Source: Halieaceae bacterium (GTDB taxonomy: Bacteria > Pseudomonadota > Gammaproteobacteria > Pseudomonadales > Halieaceae). Taken from it: a stretch of DNA of 14,875 nucleotides. The notes below the pieces were generated by a model that ran no database searches, was not told where the DNA came from, and saw only the letters and a list, made by a program, of their open reading frames with translations. Shown in pieces: positions 1-8,203 of the stretch (within the stretch, counting starts at the first letter, position 1; each line of letters begins with the position of its first letter). The stretch spans positions 1 through 14,875 of the forward strand of contig PAGS01000010.1 of NCBI GenBank assembly GCA_002705465.1. Direction: 5' to 3'. A program made the translations under genes and the position numbers.

Positions 1-2694
<2,694 letters not shown>

Positions 2695-2790
2695 AGGCGC
2701 CTCCTGATCGAATCGGCCTGCAAAAGGCAGTAGCGTACTATTTTTGCAGAATTGAACGCCTTGCGGGCTATCGTCCGAAGCGGAGCAGAG

Positions 2791-2826
2791 ACCCATAATA
2801 CTGTATAAAAATACAGTATTATGGGT
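2791..2826. promoter_or_regulatory. LexA box inside a 36-bp perfect-arm palindrome, imuB / DUF885 intergenic region
   Basis: The SOS box CTGTATAAAAATACAG lies at 2801-2816 and fits the LexA consensus CTG-N10-CAG, including the wider TACTGT-N8-ACAGTA. It sits inside two exact 16-base arms (2791-2806 and 2811-2826) separated by AAAA, so the symmetry runs well past what LexA needs. CATAAT, a near-consensus -10 hexamer, occurs on the plus strand at 2794-2799 and, by symmetry, on the minus strand at 2818-2823. TATAAA at 2804-2809 is an alternative plus-strand -10. LexA bound here would block imuB transcription and could also block the divergent DUF885 gene. The LexA assignment is strong; control of DUF885 is inferred. 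Confidence 0.9.
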
Positions 2827-2828
2827 CG

Positions 2829-4337
2829 ATGTCTCTCTGGCTTTGTCTCCGTTTCGAATTATTACCACTGGAAGCCCTGCTCACACAGCAGGGTCAACCT
2901 GATGACACCGCCGTCATCATTGCGGCTCAACGACGCGTCTTAATCTGTGATGAACGAGCCAGCCTCTGTGGGGTACTACCTGAGCAAAGCATCAGTACAG
3001 CACAAGCGCTACTCGTAGATACCCAGCACTGTGTACTCGAGCGCTCCCGGGAGACGGAAGAAGCACTACTGGAGCAACTCAGCATCTGGGCTTACGGTCT
3101 ATCGCCTCACCTACAACGCTGGCGTGATGATGCACTGATGATTGAAATTGGCGGCTGCCTGAGATTACACCGTGGCCTCGATGCATTATTGGCCCACATC
3201 GATATCGAGATGCGCTTCCGTGGCCTGACCATCGCGATCGGGATCGCCGAGACCTGTCACGCGGCTTGGTTGTTGAGTCATACGGAAAGATGTATCGCTT
3301 GCCAACCCGAACAACCTCTTACTGAGCGTTTGGCACCACTGCCGCTACATCTGATCGCAGTTGATTTTCCTCAGGTGATCAGGCGACTTGAGAAAACCGG
3401 TATACGCGAATTTCGGCAACTACTGGCTATTTCTCCCGCCGCACTGGGTAAACGTTGTGGGGAGCCTTTTCTTAACTGGGTCAATCGATTGACGGGTAGC
3501 CAGCCGGAGCCCAGCGTGACCTACCAGCCTCCCGAGCGTTTTGAAGATACACTCTGGTTCGGGTTCGACGCGCAGAACCGGCAAGAACTTTATCCAGCCA
3601 TGCAGCGCCTGTTGACGCACTTTTGCCAGTTTCTGACAAACACACAGCTCACCAGCAACATCATTGAATGGCGTTACCGACAGCCCAATCATCTGCAGTC
3701 ACAGCCTGATCAAACAAAGCCTTTATCGGTAACAACGGCAAATGGGCGACAGAGCTTCTCTGGAGCTACACTCAAGGTTTCTTCCGATACGGCACAAAAT
3801 AACGCCCAGCTCTGGTTCGAGCTATCGTGCTTACAGCTTGACAATCAGCATCTGCCAGAGGGCATTGAAGGTCTCAGCTTGATTGTCGAGCACTTGCAGA
3901 GGCGCACCGTAGCGCCTGATGATTTATTTCATGTCGGCGCCAATCCAGCATCCCGACATGAACTGGTTGATCGACTGCGCAGCAGGCTGGGGCTACAAGC
4001 TGTTGGCCATCTGGATTACCGTTACGAGCACTTACCCGAAGCATCGGTAATCGAAACTCACACGCTCTCTGCGCAGAAAAATAGTGGCCATCACTCTTTG
4101 CAGCAACGGCCATTCTGGTTATTACCGGCACCTCAACCTATCCATCAGACTGCAGGACAGCTTTACTGGAATGGGCCACTGAGCGTCATTCACGGGCCGG
4201 AACGCATTGAGGATCGCTGGTGGAAAACCCCTGTCAGCCGCGATTACTACGTGGCCTGCACACCACAGAAACAGCCAATTTGGATATATCAGGATCGATA
4301 CAATCGGCGCTGGTATTTACATGGGCTCTTTGCCTGA
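2829..4337 (+). CDS. imuB: ImuB, inactive Y-family polymerase homologue of the SOS mutasome
   Basis: A 502-residue ImuB. It is an adaptor that recruits DnaE2 to the beta clamp for error-prone translesion synthesis and does not synthesise DNA itself. Seen: the start MSLWLCLRFELLPLEALL, typical of ImuB; a Y-family-like palm and HhH region to about residue 225; and the diagnostic C-terminus RDYYVACTPQ followed by WIYQDRYNRRWYLHGLFA. Where active Y-family enzymes carry SxDE, this protein reads IEIGGCLRL (about 105-113), so the catalytic acidic pair is missing, as expected for ImuB. DDLF at 364-367 is a possible weak clamp-binding motif (inference). The ATG at 2829 lies 12 bases after the LexA box and has no good Shine-Dalgarno sequence, so the leader is very short. 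No imuA precedes it and dnaE2 does not directly follow it, unlike the usual operon. A divergent lipoprotein gene lies upstream and a convergent lipocalin gene downstream. Confidence 0.92.
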   Translation: MSLWLCLRFELLPLEALLTQQGQPDDTAVIIAAQRRVLICDERASLCGVLPEQSISTAQALLVDTQHCVLERSRETEEALLEQLSIWAYGLSPHLQRWRDDALMIEIGGCLRLHRGLDALLAHIDIEMRFRGLTIAIGIAETCHAAWLLSHTERCIACQPEQPLTERLAPLPLHLIAVDFPQVIRRLEKTGIREFRQLLAISPAALGKRCGEPFLNWVNRLTGSQPEPSVTYQPPERFEDTLWFGFDAQNRQELYPAMQRLLTHFCQFLTNTQLTSNIIEWRYRQPNHLQSQPDQTKPLSVTTANGRQSFSGATLKVSSDTAQNNAQLWFELSCLQLDNQHLPEGIEGLSLIVEHLQRRTVAPDDLFHVGANPASRHELVDRLRSRLGLQAVGHLDYRYEHLPEASVIETHTLSAQKNSGHHSLQQRPFWLLPAPQPIHQTAGQLYWNGPLSVIHGPERIEDRWWKTPVSRDYYVACTPQKQPIWIYQDRYNRRWYLHGLFA

Positions 4338-4404
4338 GTGGTAATCGTCTGCTGAGTGAGACCCTGCGACCAGTCCTCAAGCGATAGCCGCTGTCTCACC
4401 GTTA

Positions 4405-4965
4405 TCAGAGGTTGCCCGCTATCACCTCAGCGGGTTTATCCAACCAGATAAGATCGGCCGAATCGAAGCCCAATTCGGAGATAGTTTCCAGAAACTCGGC
4501 GCGTAACGTTTCGCTCACCTGAGGACTTCGGGCGAGAAACCATAAATAGCTACGGTTAAAGCCTGACACAAAGGCATAGTCGTAGTTCTCCCCCAGTTCA
4601 AAAACAACATAGCTCCCATAAAATGGCCCAAAGAAAGACACTTTCAAGTGCGCGATATCGGGAGATTGGACAAAGCGCGCGATACCATTGGCTTCTCGCC
4701 ACTCACCCTCGTCGCTATCAAACCCACGATTTAATACTGCAATACTGCCGTCAGGGTTAACGCTATAGGTTGCGCTGACGTCGCTCAGACCGTGCTCAAA
4801 GCTATGGTCCAAACGCGCGATTTCATACCAGATACCAAGATAGCGGTTTTGATCAAACCCCGTAACAGGCTCAATGCCATCAGGCACCCCGGTACACCCC
4901 GCCAGATAGAAGCAAAGCACTCCCATCAGCATGTGTCGGATACGCCGTAAACCAATAACTCCCAT
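4405..4965 (-). CDS. blc: Blc-type bacterial lipocalin, outer-membrane lipoprotein
   Basis: A 186-residue lipocalin close to E. coli Blc (177 aa), which binds lysophospholipids and fatty acids at the outer membrane and is linked to envelope stress. Seen: the lipoprotein signal MLMGVLCFYLAGC with lipobox LAGC-T; the lipocalin GxW motif in YLGIWYEIARLDHSFEHGL; then LKVSFFGPFYGSY and SYLWFLARSP, all matching Blc in order, and a C-terminal segment GFDSADLIWLDK. The ATG at 4965 was chosen because GGGGGA precedes it and the signal peptide then has normal length. The frame remains open upstream to a TTG at 5070, giving an unlikely 35-residue extension. The gene lies between imuB (convergent, 67-base gap) and dnaE2 (divergent). 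The dnaE2 LexA box is about 130 bases upstream of its start, so SOS control is possible but not shown. A terminator-like hairpin lies in its leader. Confidence 0.9.
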   Translation of the reverse strand: MGVIGLRRIRHMLMGVLCFYLAGCTGVPDGIEPVTGFDQNRYLGIWYEIARLDHSFEHGLSDVSATYSVNPDGSIAVLNRGFDSDEGEWREANGIARFVQSPDIAHLKVSFFGPFYGSYVVFELGENYDYAFVSGFNRSYLWFLARSPQVSETLRAEFLETISELGFDSADLIWLDKPAEVIAGNL

Positions 4966-4980
4966 CGCTTCCCCCGGGAT

Positions 4981-5014
4981 AAAAAACAATAACCAGGTAT
5001 GTCTCTGGTTATTG
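4981..5014 (-). terminator. Terminator-like hairpin in the blc leader, possible attenuator
   Basis: Read on the minus strand, CAATAACCAG and CTGGTTATTG form a perfect 10-bp stem with an 8-base loop, followed directly by TTTTTT. This ends 15 bases before the blc start codon and just before its GGGGGA ribosome-binding site. Stem plus U-tract is the form of an intrinsic terminator, placed where it would act as an attenuator or as a block to transcripts from the dnaE2 promoter region. The stem is only moderately GC-rich, so it may instead be an operator palindrome. Confidence 0.45.
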
Positions 5015-5063
5015 CGCACTGCAGTTTGTGTAAAACGCGAGTCTACGCTATTCGTCACCATAC

Positions 5064-5093
5064 TTTTCAAATAGGCCTCCGCCTCGCTAGAAT
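5064..5093 (+). promoter_or_regulatory. Predicted sigma70-type promoter of dnaE2
   Basis: TTTTCA at 5064-5069 and TAGAAT at 5088-5093 are spaced 18 bases apart and match the -35 (4/6) and -10 (5/6) hexamers. Transcription would start near 5100, inside the LexA box at 5095-5110, giving a leader of only about 20 bases before the GTG start. Read by eye only. Confidence 0.45.
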
Positions 5094-5114
5094 ACTGTTT
5101 ATTTATACAGTATT
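5091..5114. promoter_or_regulatory. LexA (SOS) box upstream of dnaE2
   Basis: CTGTTTATTTATACAG at 5095-5110 is a full CTG-N10-CAG SOS box. Its exact flanking symmetry AATACTGT-N8-ACAGTATT is identical to the core of the imuB box, so this appears to be the host's LexA consensus. It ends 9 bases before the dnaE2 GTG and overlaps the predicted transcription start. It also lies upstream of the divergent blc gene. Confidence 0.92.
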
Positions 5115-5119
5115 TTTTT

Positions 5120-8100
5120 GTGTACGCGGAACTCCACTGTTTAAGTCACTACAGCTTTTTGCGCGGCGCCTCGGCACCTGAAGAACTGGTAAACCGGGCG
5201 ATCCATTGCGGCTACCATGCGCTTGCCATTACTGATGAGTGCTCCTTAGCAGGCGTGGTTAAAGCTCACGTTGCCGCTAAAGAGCACAACCTGAAACTCA
5301 TTATTGGCAGCGAATTAACGCTGACCGAGGGTATCCGTCTGGTTGCACTGGTACCCGACCGCAAGGCTTATGGGGAGTTGTCAGGGCTCATCAGTCGAGC
5401 TCGCCGCCGCAGCGGCAAGGGGGAATACATCGTTCATTTGCGCGATGTGATCTTTCACCTGAAACGCTGCCTGCTCATCCTCTTACCCGATGACACCGCA
5501 AATCAGAGTGTTCATCTTCAGCAGTTGGCAAAACGATGCAAGGGGCGTGTATGGATCGGCATCAGCCGACTACTGGGTAACGACGAATGGCGACGTTTCA
5601 AACATCGCTATCACATAGCCCAAACCTTGCAGGTGCCCATGGTCGCATGTGGTGAAGTGCAGATGCACAGCGCCAAACGAAAAGCACTGCATGACGTCCT
5701 CACCGCCATCAGAACTCAAACCCCAGTACAGGAACTAGGACACCGGCGACTCGTCAACAGTCAGCAACACTTACGCAGGCTAGATACATTGACTTCACTT
5801 TACCCCGAGACACTCATTCAAGAGACACGGCATGTTGCCGACCAATGCCAATTCAGTCTTGATGAGCTCCGCTACGAGTATCCTGAAGAAGTTGTCCCCC
5901 CCCACCACACTGCCAACAGCTACTTGCGACAGGAAGTCGCTGCCGGTGCGAAATTACGCTGGCCGGATGGTATACCCGAGACCATTCAAACCCGGATTCA
6001 CCGGGAGCTCGACCTGATCACAGAGCTCTCTTACGAATACTATTTTCTGACCGTTTACGACATTGTCCGCTTCGCCAAATCCCGGCATATCCTTTGTCAG
6101 GGAAGAGGCTCCGCCGCCAATTCCGTTGTCTGCTACTGCCTACACATCACCGAAGTATCTCCCGAACAAGTCTCACTACTTTTTGAACGATTTATTTCAC
6201 GGGAGCGGGATGAACCTCCAGACATTGACGTCGACTTTGAACACGAGCGGCGCGAAGAGGTCATTCAGTACATTTACGAAAAATATTCGCGTCGTCGCGC
6301 CGCGCTAGCGGCCACCGTGATCACTTACCGATCGCGCAGTGCGGTACGCGACGTTGGCAAAGCCATGGGGTTTGATGCCACCTTTATTGAAGAACTCGCA
6401 AGTTCTCTCGCCTGGTGGAATCGCGAACGGGACCTGACCAGCCGTTTCCAACAACAGGGTATAGCGCGCTCAGGGCAAATCGCCGAACACTTCATGACGA
6501 GGGTTCGGGAAATACTGGGCTTCCCGCGCCACCTTTCACAGCACGTGGGAGGGTTTGTCATCAGCCGCGGCCCGATCTCAAATCTGGTGCCGGTTGAAAA
6601 CGCCAGCATGCCCGACCGAACAGTCATCCAATGGGACAAGGAGGATATTGAGGCACTGGGACTACTCAAGGTCGATATTCTGGCACTCGGAATGCTTTCA
6701 GCAATTCGCAAAACGTTGGAGATAGTCAATCGGAGCCACGCCGACATCCGATGCATTCAGGACATTCCTCAAGAAGACGCAGCGACCTATCGAATGCTAC
6801 AGAAAGCAGATTCGCTAGGCGTCTTTCAAATCGAATCTCGGGCACAAATGTCGATGCTGCCCAGGCTCAAGCCCGCCTGCTTCTACGATCTGGTTATCGA
6901 GATCGCCATTGTTCGGCCCGGACCCATTCAGGGCGATATGGTGCATCCTTACCTGCGCCGCAAGGCAGGCTTGGAAGCGATCAACTATCCCAACGAGGCA
7001 ATCAAATCCGTTTTATCGCGGACTCTCGGCGTCCCTATATTTCAGGAGCAGGTTATCCGCCTCGCCATGGTTGCCGCCGGGTTTACCGGAGGAGAAGCCG
7101 ACTCCCTTCGACGAGCCATCAGCAACTGGGGTAAGAACAGCAAGCTCCTGACCTTCGAGAACAAGCTCAAAGAAGGCATGATTAGCAAGGGGTATACCCC
7201 GGATTTTGCTGATCGACTGTTCAACCAAATCAAAGGGTTTGGTGGTTATGGGTTCCCAGAATCACATTCAGCAAGCTTTGCCTTATTGGCTTATGTCTCA
7301 GCCTGGCTTAAATGCCATCACCCCGCCGCATTCTATGTCGGATTACTCAACAGCCAGCCCATGGGTTTTTATTCGCCGTCGCAACTGATACAGGATGCAC
7401 GGCGACATCACATCATGGTCTTACCCATCGATGTGAATCACAGCAGTTGGGATCACCAAGTGCTGTCATCACCCAATCGGCAGCAGCCACCGATCAGACT
7501 TGGGTTGAGGCTGGTCAAGGGCTTGAGCAAGGAGGCAGGTGAACGTATCTATGCCGCGCAACGAGGACAAGGATTTTCTGATATTGGCGATTTGCGCCGG
7601 CGCGCATTCCTTGATCGCCGCAGCATGGAGGCATTGGCCGCAGCAGATGCACTCTCGAGCATCAGTGGTAACCGCTATCAATCACATTGGCAGACCATGG
7701 CAATGGAAGATGAATCTCCACTGCTACCTGCAGACACGCATTTACATCATCACCATGATGAAGAAAGTGCTATCGAAGCGCCTGCCCTCGCAGAGGAGGT
7801 GATTGCCGATTACCAAAGTACGGGGCTCACCTTAAGGTCGCATCCACTGGCCTTGCTGCGTCATCGGTACCCATTTGATCGCTGTCAACGGCAAACAGAG
7901 CTTGAGCACTTGGGCAATCACCGCTTCGTTCGCGTCGCAGGACTGGTCACTTGCCGTCAGCGCCCGGGCACTGCCTCAGGCGTAGTATTTCTGACCCTTG
8001 AGGATGAAACTGGGAACATCAACGTTATCGTTTGGCCTGCCATACAGGAGCGCTGTCGCCAGAGTTTAATGACGTCCCAATTATTGCTGGTCAAAGGCAC

Positions 8101-8203
8101 GGTTGAATCCCGGGAAGGCGTCACGCATGTCATTGCCGGCACGCTTGAGGATTGCAGTCATCATCTAACAGCGCTAAGTGTCCAGTCCCGAGATTTTCAC
8201 TGA
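5120..8203 (+). CDS. dnaE2: DnaE2, error-prone DNA polymerase III alpha subunit homologue
   Basis: A 1027-residue C-family polymerase that performs SOS-induced mutagenic translesion synthesis with ImuB. The length fits DnaE2 and is shorter than replicative DnaE (about 1160). Domains in order: a PHP domain starting YAELHCLSHYSFLRGAS, where His6 is kept but the second His of the HxH motif appears as Leu8; the palm with CQGRGSAANS and PPDIDVDFEHERREEV (Asp370 and Asp372 as catalytic pair); the third catalytic Asp at about 519 in GLLKVDILALGML; the fingers segment GFTGGEADSLRRAISNWGK; HhH near 800-860; and a C-terminal OB fold (about 928-1010). The start is GTG with no Shine-Dalgarno sequence; upstream is the T-rich edge of the LexA box. 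The linker before the OB fold holds a histidine cluster HLHHHHDEE at 874-882. It is separated from imuB by the oppositely oriented blc gene, whereas the usual arrangement is imuA-imuB-dnaE2. Confidence 0.95.
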   Translation: MYAELHCLSHYSFLRGASAPEELVNRAIHCGYHALAITDECSLAGVVKAHVAAKEHNLKLIIGSELTLTEGIRLVALVPDRKAYGELSGLISRARRRSGKGEYIVHLRDVIFHLKRCLLILLPDDTANQSVHLQQLAKRCKGRVWIGISRLLGNDEWRRFKHRYHIAQTLQVPMVACGEVQMHSAKRKALHDVLTAIRTQTPVQELGHRRLVNSQQHLRRLDTLTSLYPETLIQETRHVADQCQFSLDELRYEYPEEVVPPHHTANSYLRQEVAAGAKLRWPDGIPETIQTRIHRELDLITELSYEYYFLTVYDIVRFAKSRHILCQGRGSAANSVVCYCLHITEVSPEQVSLLFERFISRERDEPPDIDVDFEHERREEVIQYIYEKYSRRRAALAATVITYRSRSAVRDVGKAMGFDATFIEELASSLAWWNRERDLTSRFQQQGIARSGQIAEHFMTRVREILGFPRHLSQHVGGFVISRGPISNLVPVENASMPDRTVIQWDKEDIEALGLLKVDILALGMLSAIRKTLEIVNRSHADIRCIQDIPQEDAATYRMLQKADSLGVFQIESRAQMSMLPRLKPACFYDLVIEIAIVRPGPIQGDMVHPYLRRKAGLEAINYPNEAIKSVLSRTLGVPIFQEQVIRLAMVAAGFTGGEADSLRRAISNWGKNSKLLTFENKLKEGMISKGYTPDFADRLFNQIKGFGGYGFPESHSASFALLAYVSAWLKCHHPAAFYVGLLNSQPMGFYSPSQLIQDARRHHIMVLPIDVNHSSWDHQVLSSPNRQQPPIRLGLRLVKGLSKEAGERIYAAQRGQGFSDIGDLRRRAFLDRRSMEALAAADALSSISGNRYQSHWQTMAMEDESPLLPADTHLHHHHDEESAIEAPALAEEVIADYQSTGLTLRSHPLALLRHRYPFDRCQRQTELEHLGNHRFVRVAGLVTCRQRPGTASGVVFLTLEDETGNINVIVWPAIQERCRQSLMTSQLLLVKGTVESREGVTHVIAGTLEDCSHHLTALSVQSRDFH

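Follow-up and report, generated by a model that had tools for sequence, protein, structure and literature searches.

The DNA considered here very probably belongs to a complete SOS mutasome of the ordinary ImuA-ImuB-DnaE2 type, the genes of which are set apart in three LexA-repressed units that are still neighbours. In the proposed layout, a boxed imuA-osmC unit would be followed at some distance by a boxed imuB and, past a reverse-oriented blc, by a boxed dnaE2. Upon DNA damage, RecA would be activated and LexA cleaved, such that the three units would be derepressed together, with ImuB bridging ImuA and DnaE2, as in other bacteria. This reading is the most likely one because relatives carry a boxed imuA upstream of imuB and because the contig in question ends in katG; the presence of imuA in this particular genome, the binding of LexA, induction and the formation of the complex are what we infer.

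The window (i.e., the whole stretch of DNA analysed, 14,875 bp) is an entire contig (G000:C74) from a draft genome that is 62.76% complete, with 1,291,529 bases spread over 94 contigs. Profile and homology searches of the window revealed, from left to right, the 3' end of katG, a DUF885 gene, imuB, a blc-like lipocalin gene and dnaE2, confirming imuB, the reverse-oriented blc and dnaE2 where a preliminary description of the window had placed them. The katG part (catalase-peroxidase; positions 1-596, reverse strand) is cut by the left end of the contig and was recognized by a tblastn match (91%) at 3-596 to the KatG of genome G025, a protein that itself matches the Pfam peroxidase family. The DUF885 gene (781-2868, reverse strand; 572.6 bits with Pfam DUF885) is divergent from imuB, its start being the mechanical maximum of the ORF, with the real start probably lying further inside. 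The lipocalin gene (4405-5070, reverse strand) scored 196.4 bits with PRK10477.1 (Blc), below the cut-off of 267, and 128.5 bits with Pfam Lipocalin_2; these coordinates are ORF limits, the lipoprotein start probably lying at about 4965, as judged by eye. To the right of dnaE2 are found an FMO-like gene (reverse), argG (reverse), pyrC (forward), rnt (forward) and an amidohydrolase gene (reverse).

The product of imuB (2829-4337, forward strand; 502 residues) scored 21.9 bits with Pfam IMS, slightly below the cut-off of 23.2, and gave no match in an NCBIfam profile search. It aligned over its full length with the ImuB proteins of contiguous imuA-imuB-dnaE2 cassettes. When aligned with six other ImuB proteins, four of them from such cassettes, identities of 26-41% were obtained, with the stretches L..RL..RLG..A and GPER....WW being shared (motif named by eye). 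By alignment, the protein is Y-family-like and presents a RecA-NT motif and the ImuB C-terminal region, having retained both that region and LVDRLRSRLG (RecA-NT-like, by eye) of the four contiguous-cassette proteins. The dnaE2 gene (5120-8203, forward strand, GTG start; 1,027 residues) encodes an error-prone DNA polymerase of the DnaE2-type C family, scoring 1396.7 bits with PRK05672.1 (cut-off 939).

Both polymerase-related genes are preceded by a predicted 24-bp LexA box that fits the pattern AATACTGT-N8-ACAGTATT perfectly, namely AATACTGTATAAAAATACAGTATT at 2797-2820, 8 bases ahead of the imuB start, and AATACTGTTTATTTATACAGTATT at 5091-5114, 5 bases ahead of that of dnaE2, in agreement with the near-identical boxes described earlier. 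With separate boxes and with blc between them on the opposite strand, imuB and dnaE2 do not form one transcription unit. A candidate -35/-10 pair (TTTTCA-18-TAGAAT; 5064-5093, forward strand) would put the start of the dnaE2 transcript within the LexA box; the scan gave three promoter-like sites in the region as compared to 2.5 by chance, and like hexamers recur in the window's subclade, as judged by eye.

Across the draft, the core CTGT-N8-ACAG was found at 20 places, as compared to 17 for the reversed control, i.e., at about background, while the strict form TACTGT-W8-ACAGTA, allowing up to two mismatches, was found at just two (control, one), these being the imuB and dnaE2 boxes. In two same-genus genomes that each comprise a single contig (G006 and G030), the strict box with up to two mismatches was found only at imuA, imuB, dnaE2 and recA; when any spacer base was accepted, the survey of these genomes yielded background, with 54 and 44 sites among the matches listed, as compared to 120 and 105 in the controls. 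A LexA-like box with one imperfect half is seen upstream of recA in G030, G006 and the draft (L142, L143 and L124:2151-2170, respectively). Likewise, weak, partly tandem or half-good LexA-like boxes resembling those of autoregulated lexA genes stand upstream of lexA at seven of nine loci (among L144, L145 and L147-L152; the frame of L146, from the sister genome, begins inside lexA, so that this promoter falls outside the reading). As these boxes point to weaker LexA targets, the notion of a very small SOS regulon was dropped. No open-licence PubMed Central paper on the Luminiphilus SOS response was found.

The preliminary description also held that imuA is absent from both sides of imuB, and offered either dispersal of the mutasome with duplicated SOS control, or a system working without ImuA or with a replacement elsewhere. 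Only 2.8 kb upstream of imuB are visible, and no imuA is seen in the window, most likely because the contig stops within katG, before imuA. A search of the draft with the ImuA model NF033429 returned RecA alone (44.7 bits, cut-off 150), encoded on contig C52. By contrast, the model scored over its cut-off in 34 of the 37 same-genus genomes (a count that includes the window's own), the nearest relative among them; below it were the draft (62.8% complete), G013 (65% complete, about 430 contigs) and G012, where the imuA match is split across two contig ends. In all 25 genomes where imuA and a full-length imuB share a contig, imuA is upstream and on the same strand. Outside these 25, imuA and imuB fall on separate contigs in G003, G018, G022, G028, G029 and G036, the full imuB of G011 is on another contig, with a truncated imuB at the end of the imuA contig, and G024 offers only the first 26 imuB codons, at a contig end; imuB was unmatched in G008 and G012, as was imuA in G013, whose neighbourhood was covered to 3,055 bp, and G000 is the window's own genome.

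All 25 genomes carry a reverse-oriented blc between imuB and dnaE2, and a predicted box with an A/T-rich spacer at every one of the three mutasome genes, although dnaE2 and its box sit on another contig in one of them (G014). The split seen in the window is accordingly conserved in the genus, and dispersal with duplicated SOS control is the part of the earlier proposal that is supported, taking the form of three LexA-boxed units. The 24 genus loci holding imuA, imuB and dnaE2 span 7.2-15.0 kb (with dnaE2 cut by a contig end in three). As the draft behind the window is fragmented (94 contigs), blc might have been misplaced, or the split created, during assembly or binning; given that single-contig G006 and G030 show the same order, as do another 23 genomes of the genus, such an artefact has practically no chance of being the explanation. 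Separately, in locus L082 (G011:C19), dnaE2 is found in two reading frames (803 and 168 aa), with one TAG within the second match; this may reflect an assembly error or a true break.

In the window's subclade, the order reads MFS gene (reverse), box, imuA, osmC, katG (reverse), DUF885 gene (reverse), box, imuB, blc (reverse), box, dnaE2, FMO gene (reverse) and argG (reverse), such that imuA-osmC adjoins katG on its far side. Judging from the gene order of these close relatives, imuA is most likely situated a short way past the left end of the window. The sister genome (G029), 97.2% identical to the window over 14,057 bp, carries a boxed imuA on a contig (C34) that ends inside osmC, and imuB on a contig (C80) that begins inside katG. 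As these two contigs do not overlap, the link between imuA and imuB in the sister relies on the gene order of other species.

Were imuA truly lost from this lineage, RecA could have replaced ImuA at the RecA-NT motif of ImuB. The search of the draft, with RecA as its only return, would agree with this, as would the ImuA-less variants described in PMC6511836, for which RecA is suggested as partner. As described there, however, those variants also lack a typical ImuB, whereas the ImuB of the window is typical. Moreover, the sister possesses imuA, while the draft is without more than one third of its genome and gave no match for lexA, found in the other nine of ten genomes searched, or for holA, a near neighbour of imuA in relatives. 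Because lexA and holA are unmatched as well and because the sister shows the same break, incompleteness of the draft, rather than loss, is the simplest explanation. In light of imuA being found in 34 of the 37 genus genomes, and boxed in the sister, its loss was rejected as highly improbable. An imuA with a matching LexA box, which the preliminary description had said would reduce its proposal to a simple rearrangement, is thus present in relatives, while in the draft the contig stops before the relevant spot. A mutasome without ImuA would have been the headline, and the relatives removed it: the two boxed units had been read correctly, and the absence of imuA had been wrongly deduced at a contig edge. 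The sister ImuA has no GKT or GKS at the place of the RecA Walker A motif, as judged by eye; ImuA proteins of this kind, without a Walker A GKT/GKS, are mentioned in PMC12926913 and PMC6511836.

To place the split in a wider context, other genera of the family were sampled (22 genera, 30 loci), using a fixed set of reference genes only. Here, imuB has its own box in 22 of the loci and follows imuA unboxed in eight, only one of which (from G154) has imuA-imuB-dnaE2 together. Within the fetched stretch, imuA was found in 17 of the 22 boxed-imuB loci, and in 14 of these 17 the reference gene that follows it is osmC (at a distance of 1.2 kb in G090). In genomes from other families of the order, the three genes are adjacent in eight of 12 (dnaE2 of G052 being cut by a contig end); G039, G044 and G050 present imuA-imuB with a distant, separately boxed dnaE2, and G051 presents imuA-imuB, with none of its DnaE2 matches exceeding 32% identity. 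Based on 22 of 30 family loci being boxed at imuB as compared to adjacency in eight of 12 other-family genomes, the second split, i.e., that of imuB from imuA, appears typical of the family, and the clustered three-unit form typical of the genus.

Such an arrangement is of a kind already described. According to section 13 of the review PMC3901139, almost all configurations exist, and one sentence of that paper, citing older work, reports cases in which imuA, imuB and imuC occupy different loci and each has an SOS box of its own. By that description, the arrangement is the same as that seen here, where, as compared to those cases as described, the units are colinear neighbours interleaved with osmC, katG, the DUF885 gene and blc. 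The imuA-imuB-dnaE2 (imuABC) SOS mutagenesis cassette of Proteobacteria, exemplified in PMC3901139 by lexA2-imuA-imuB-imuC of Pseudomonas putida, comprises the same three proteins with LexA boxes upstream; unlike that single operon, the genes here fall into three units that are boxed separately and have other genes lying between them, and lexA is elsewhere in the genus genomes searched. The split imuA'-imuB and dnaE2 of Mycobacterium tuberculosis, as outlined in PMC3901139 and PMC6511836, are similarly separate loci each under LexA, but imuA' and imuB are kept together, whereas here imuB is parted from imuA as well. The genus thus offers a well-sampled case of an SOS operon split into three boxed units with the order kept.

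The gene next behind imuA on the same strand is osmC in 16 of the 25 genus genomes (e.g., L068:4299-5627); in the other nine, genes of one family stand there, identified as TauE/SafE by Pfam in G006. Given this position, osmC is possibly SOS-controlled, and would be co-transcribed with imuA under LexA. In the imuA-osmC region of G025, no terminator-like site was found (1.8 expected) and two promoter-like sites were found (1.6 expected), one of them at the start of osmC. No open-licence PubMed Central paper treating imuA together with osmC was found. On the other side of imuA in the sister (L066:3842-3873), 5 bases separate the imuA-assigned box from an in-frame ATG belonging to the divergent MFS gene, as judged by eye, and this gene may share control by that box.

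In the genus, start codons lie 8-14 bases past the 24-bp box at imuB and 3-13 bases past that at dnaE2. AGGA, GGAG or GAGG was found upstream of the start in none of 43 imuB and none of 42 dnaE2 loci; among comparison genes, such motifs precede one of 11 distinct starts of argG, neither of two of pyrC, six of eight of lexA and three of seven of osmC, while the imuA figure (41 of 42) is biased, since starts were chosen in favour of the motif. Leaderless or Shine-Dalgarno-less translation is not claimed as a special trait of imuB and dnaE2, the motif being rare at argG and pyrC too, and a leaderless reading of dnaE2 is further weakened by the promoter-like match that would put the transcript start inside the box.

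In kind, the system is an ordinary one; what merits closer attention is the palindrome at the imuB box. The box is surrounded by a 38-bp perfect palindrome (2790-2827; 17-bp arms, 4-base centre) that stops 1 base ahead of the imuB ATG and that, as single-stranded DNA, gave -17.1 kcal/mol (z -10.96). Across 40 distinct genus operators of imuB, a mean of 7.80 pairs was obtained at the 12 outer positions (3-14 beyond the core), as compared to 4.90 when right arms were dealt among species (sd 0.26; highest of 2000 deals, 5.83). The corresponding values were 5.30 versus 4.45 expected at dnaE2 (n 40) and 4.24 versus 4.35 at imuA (n 37), the latter being no excess. At least seven unbroken extra pairs were found at 28 of 43 imuB, nine of 43 dnaE2 and none of 42 imuA genus loci.

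In an alignment of 40 of the genus loci (39 distinct), 82.3% of the outer cells pair, as compared to 26-48% after shifting by 1-3 columns, and 102 cells are changed on both sides, as compared to 37.9 upon shuffling; when pairs changed on both sides were instead counted, the value (10) was not above that of the shuffles (9.4; reached by 272 of 500). Covariation scores for this alignment are subject to the tool's warning that kinship among sequences inflates such scores. In L071, L078, L084 and L085, the extension ends after 0-1 bases when no mismatch is allowed; in L084, all 12 of the outer places nonetheless pair.

Outside the genus, the excess at imuB is smaller (5.41 versus 4.06; n 22) and some excess is seen at imuA (4.00 versus 3.36; n 35). 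The latter is largely due to loci with imuA immediately ahead of imuB: at least seven extra pairs were found at the imuA boxes of five of eight such family loci and at none of 17 with a separate imuA (Fisher p 0.001, for groups made after the data were seen and ignoring relatedness). It therefore appears that the long palindrome accompanies the box from which imuB is driven. At 10 loci from other families of the order, 0-7 extra pairs were counted at the imuA box.

Strong covariation of the arms, together with an end 1 base ahead of the start codon, could point to translational control by an RNA hairpin in the imuB leader. RNA would, however, be expected to leave a bias in G-U pairs, and these are equally frequent on the mRNA strand and on the other (26 and 26 of 480 cells); in addition, the transcript may begin inside or after the box, leaving out the left arm. 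Given the equal G-U counts, an RNA hairpin is not favoured and is considered improbable. That same lack of RNA-strand bias, as well as arm sequences that vary between species while the symmetry stays, would suit templated mutation, in which a template switch at the LexA box copies one arm onto the other and no function is involved. Between the window and its sister, two differences are seen in the 60-bp operator, with the palindrome being longer in the window (17-bp versus 15-bp arms), also in line with this origin. The two differences are, however, in different arms, so that one template switch cannot explain both, and the genus imuA boxes, which a mutational process should strike too, show no excess symmetry. 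Templated mutation is accordingly regarded as quite possible, if somewhat short of probable; no open-licence PubMed Central paper on template switching at palindromic SOS-box operators was found. Alternatively, the palindrome may result from selection, acting on DNA shape or on mirrored elements of the promoter, and the naturally varying LexA operators of these genomes offer a test of long palindromes, i.e., of templated mutation versus selection. It is only tentatively proposed, as a rather doubtful reading, that, in this family of marine bacteria, the imuB operator and, for some species, the dnaE2 operator as well are maintained as very long perfect palindromes with arms rewritten in step between species, serving as a DNA-shape element (cruciform or mirrored promoter) or being a templated-mutation hot spot right at the promoters of the mutagenesis genes, and that osmC was recruited, in parallel, to the SOS regulon downstream of imuA.

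Throughout the 1,489,301 bases of the loci, 59 perfect palindromes (arms of at least 13 bases, loop of at most 8) were found, 47 of them around a LexA core. Because the loci had been selected on the basis of their boxes, some genomes contribute more than one locus and each arm is partly made up of box sequence, this count says no more than that the region has few other such features. The longest, found in another genus of the family (L155:5941-5992, G064), is a 52-bp perfect palindrome with 25-bp arms around the dnaE2 LexA box.
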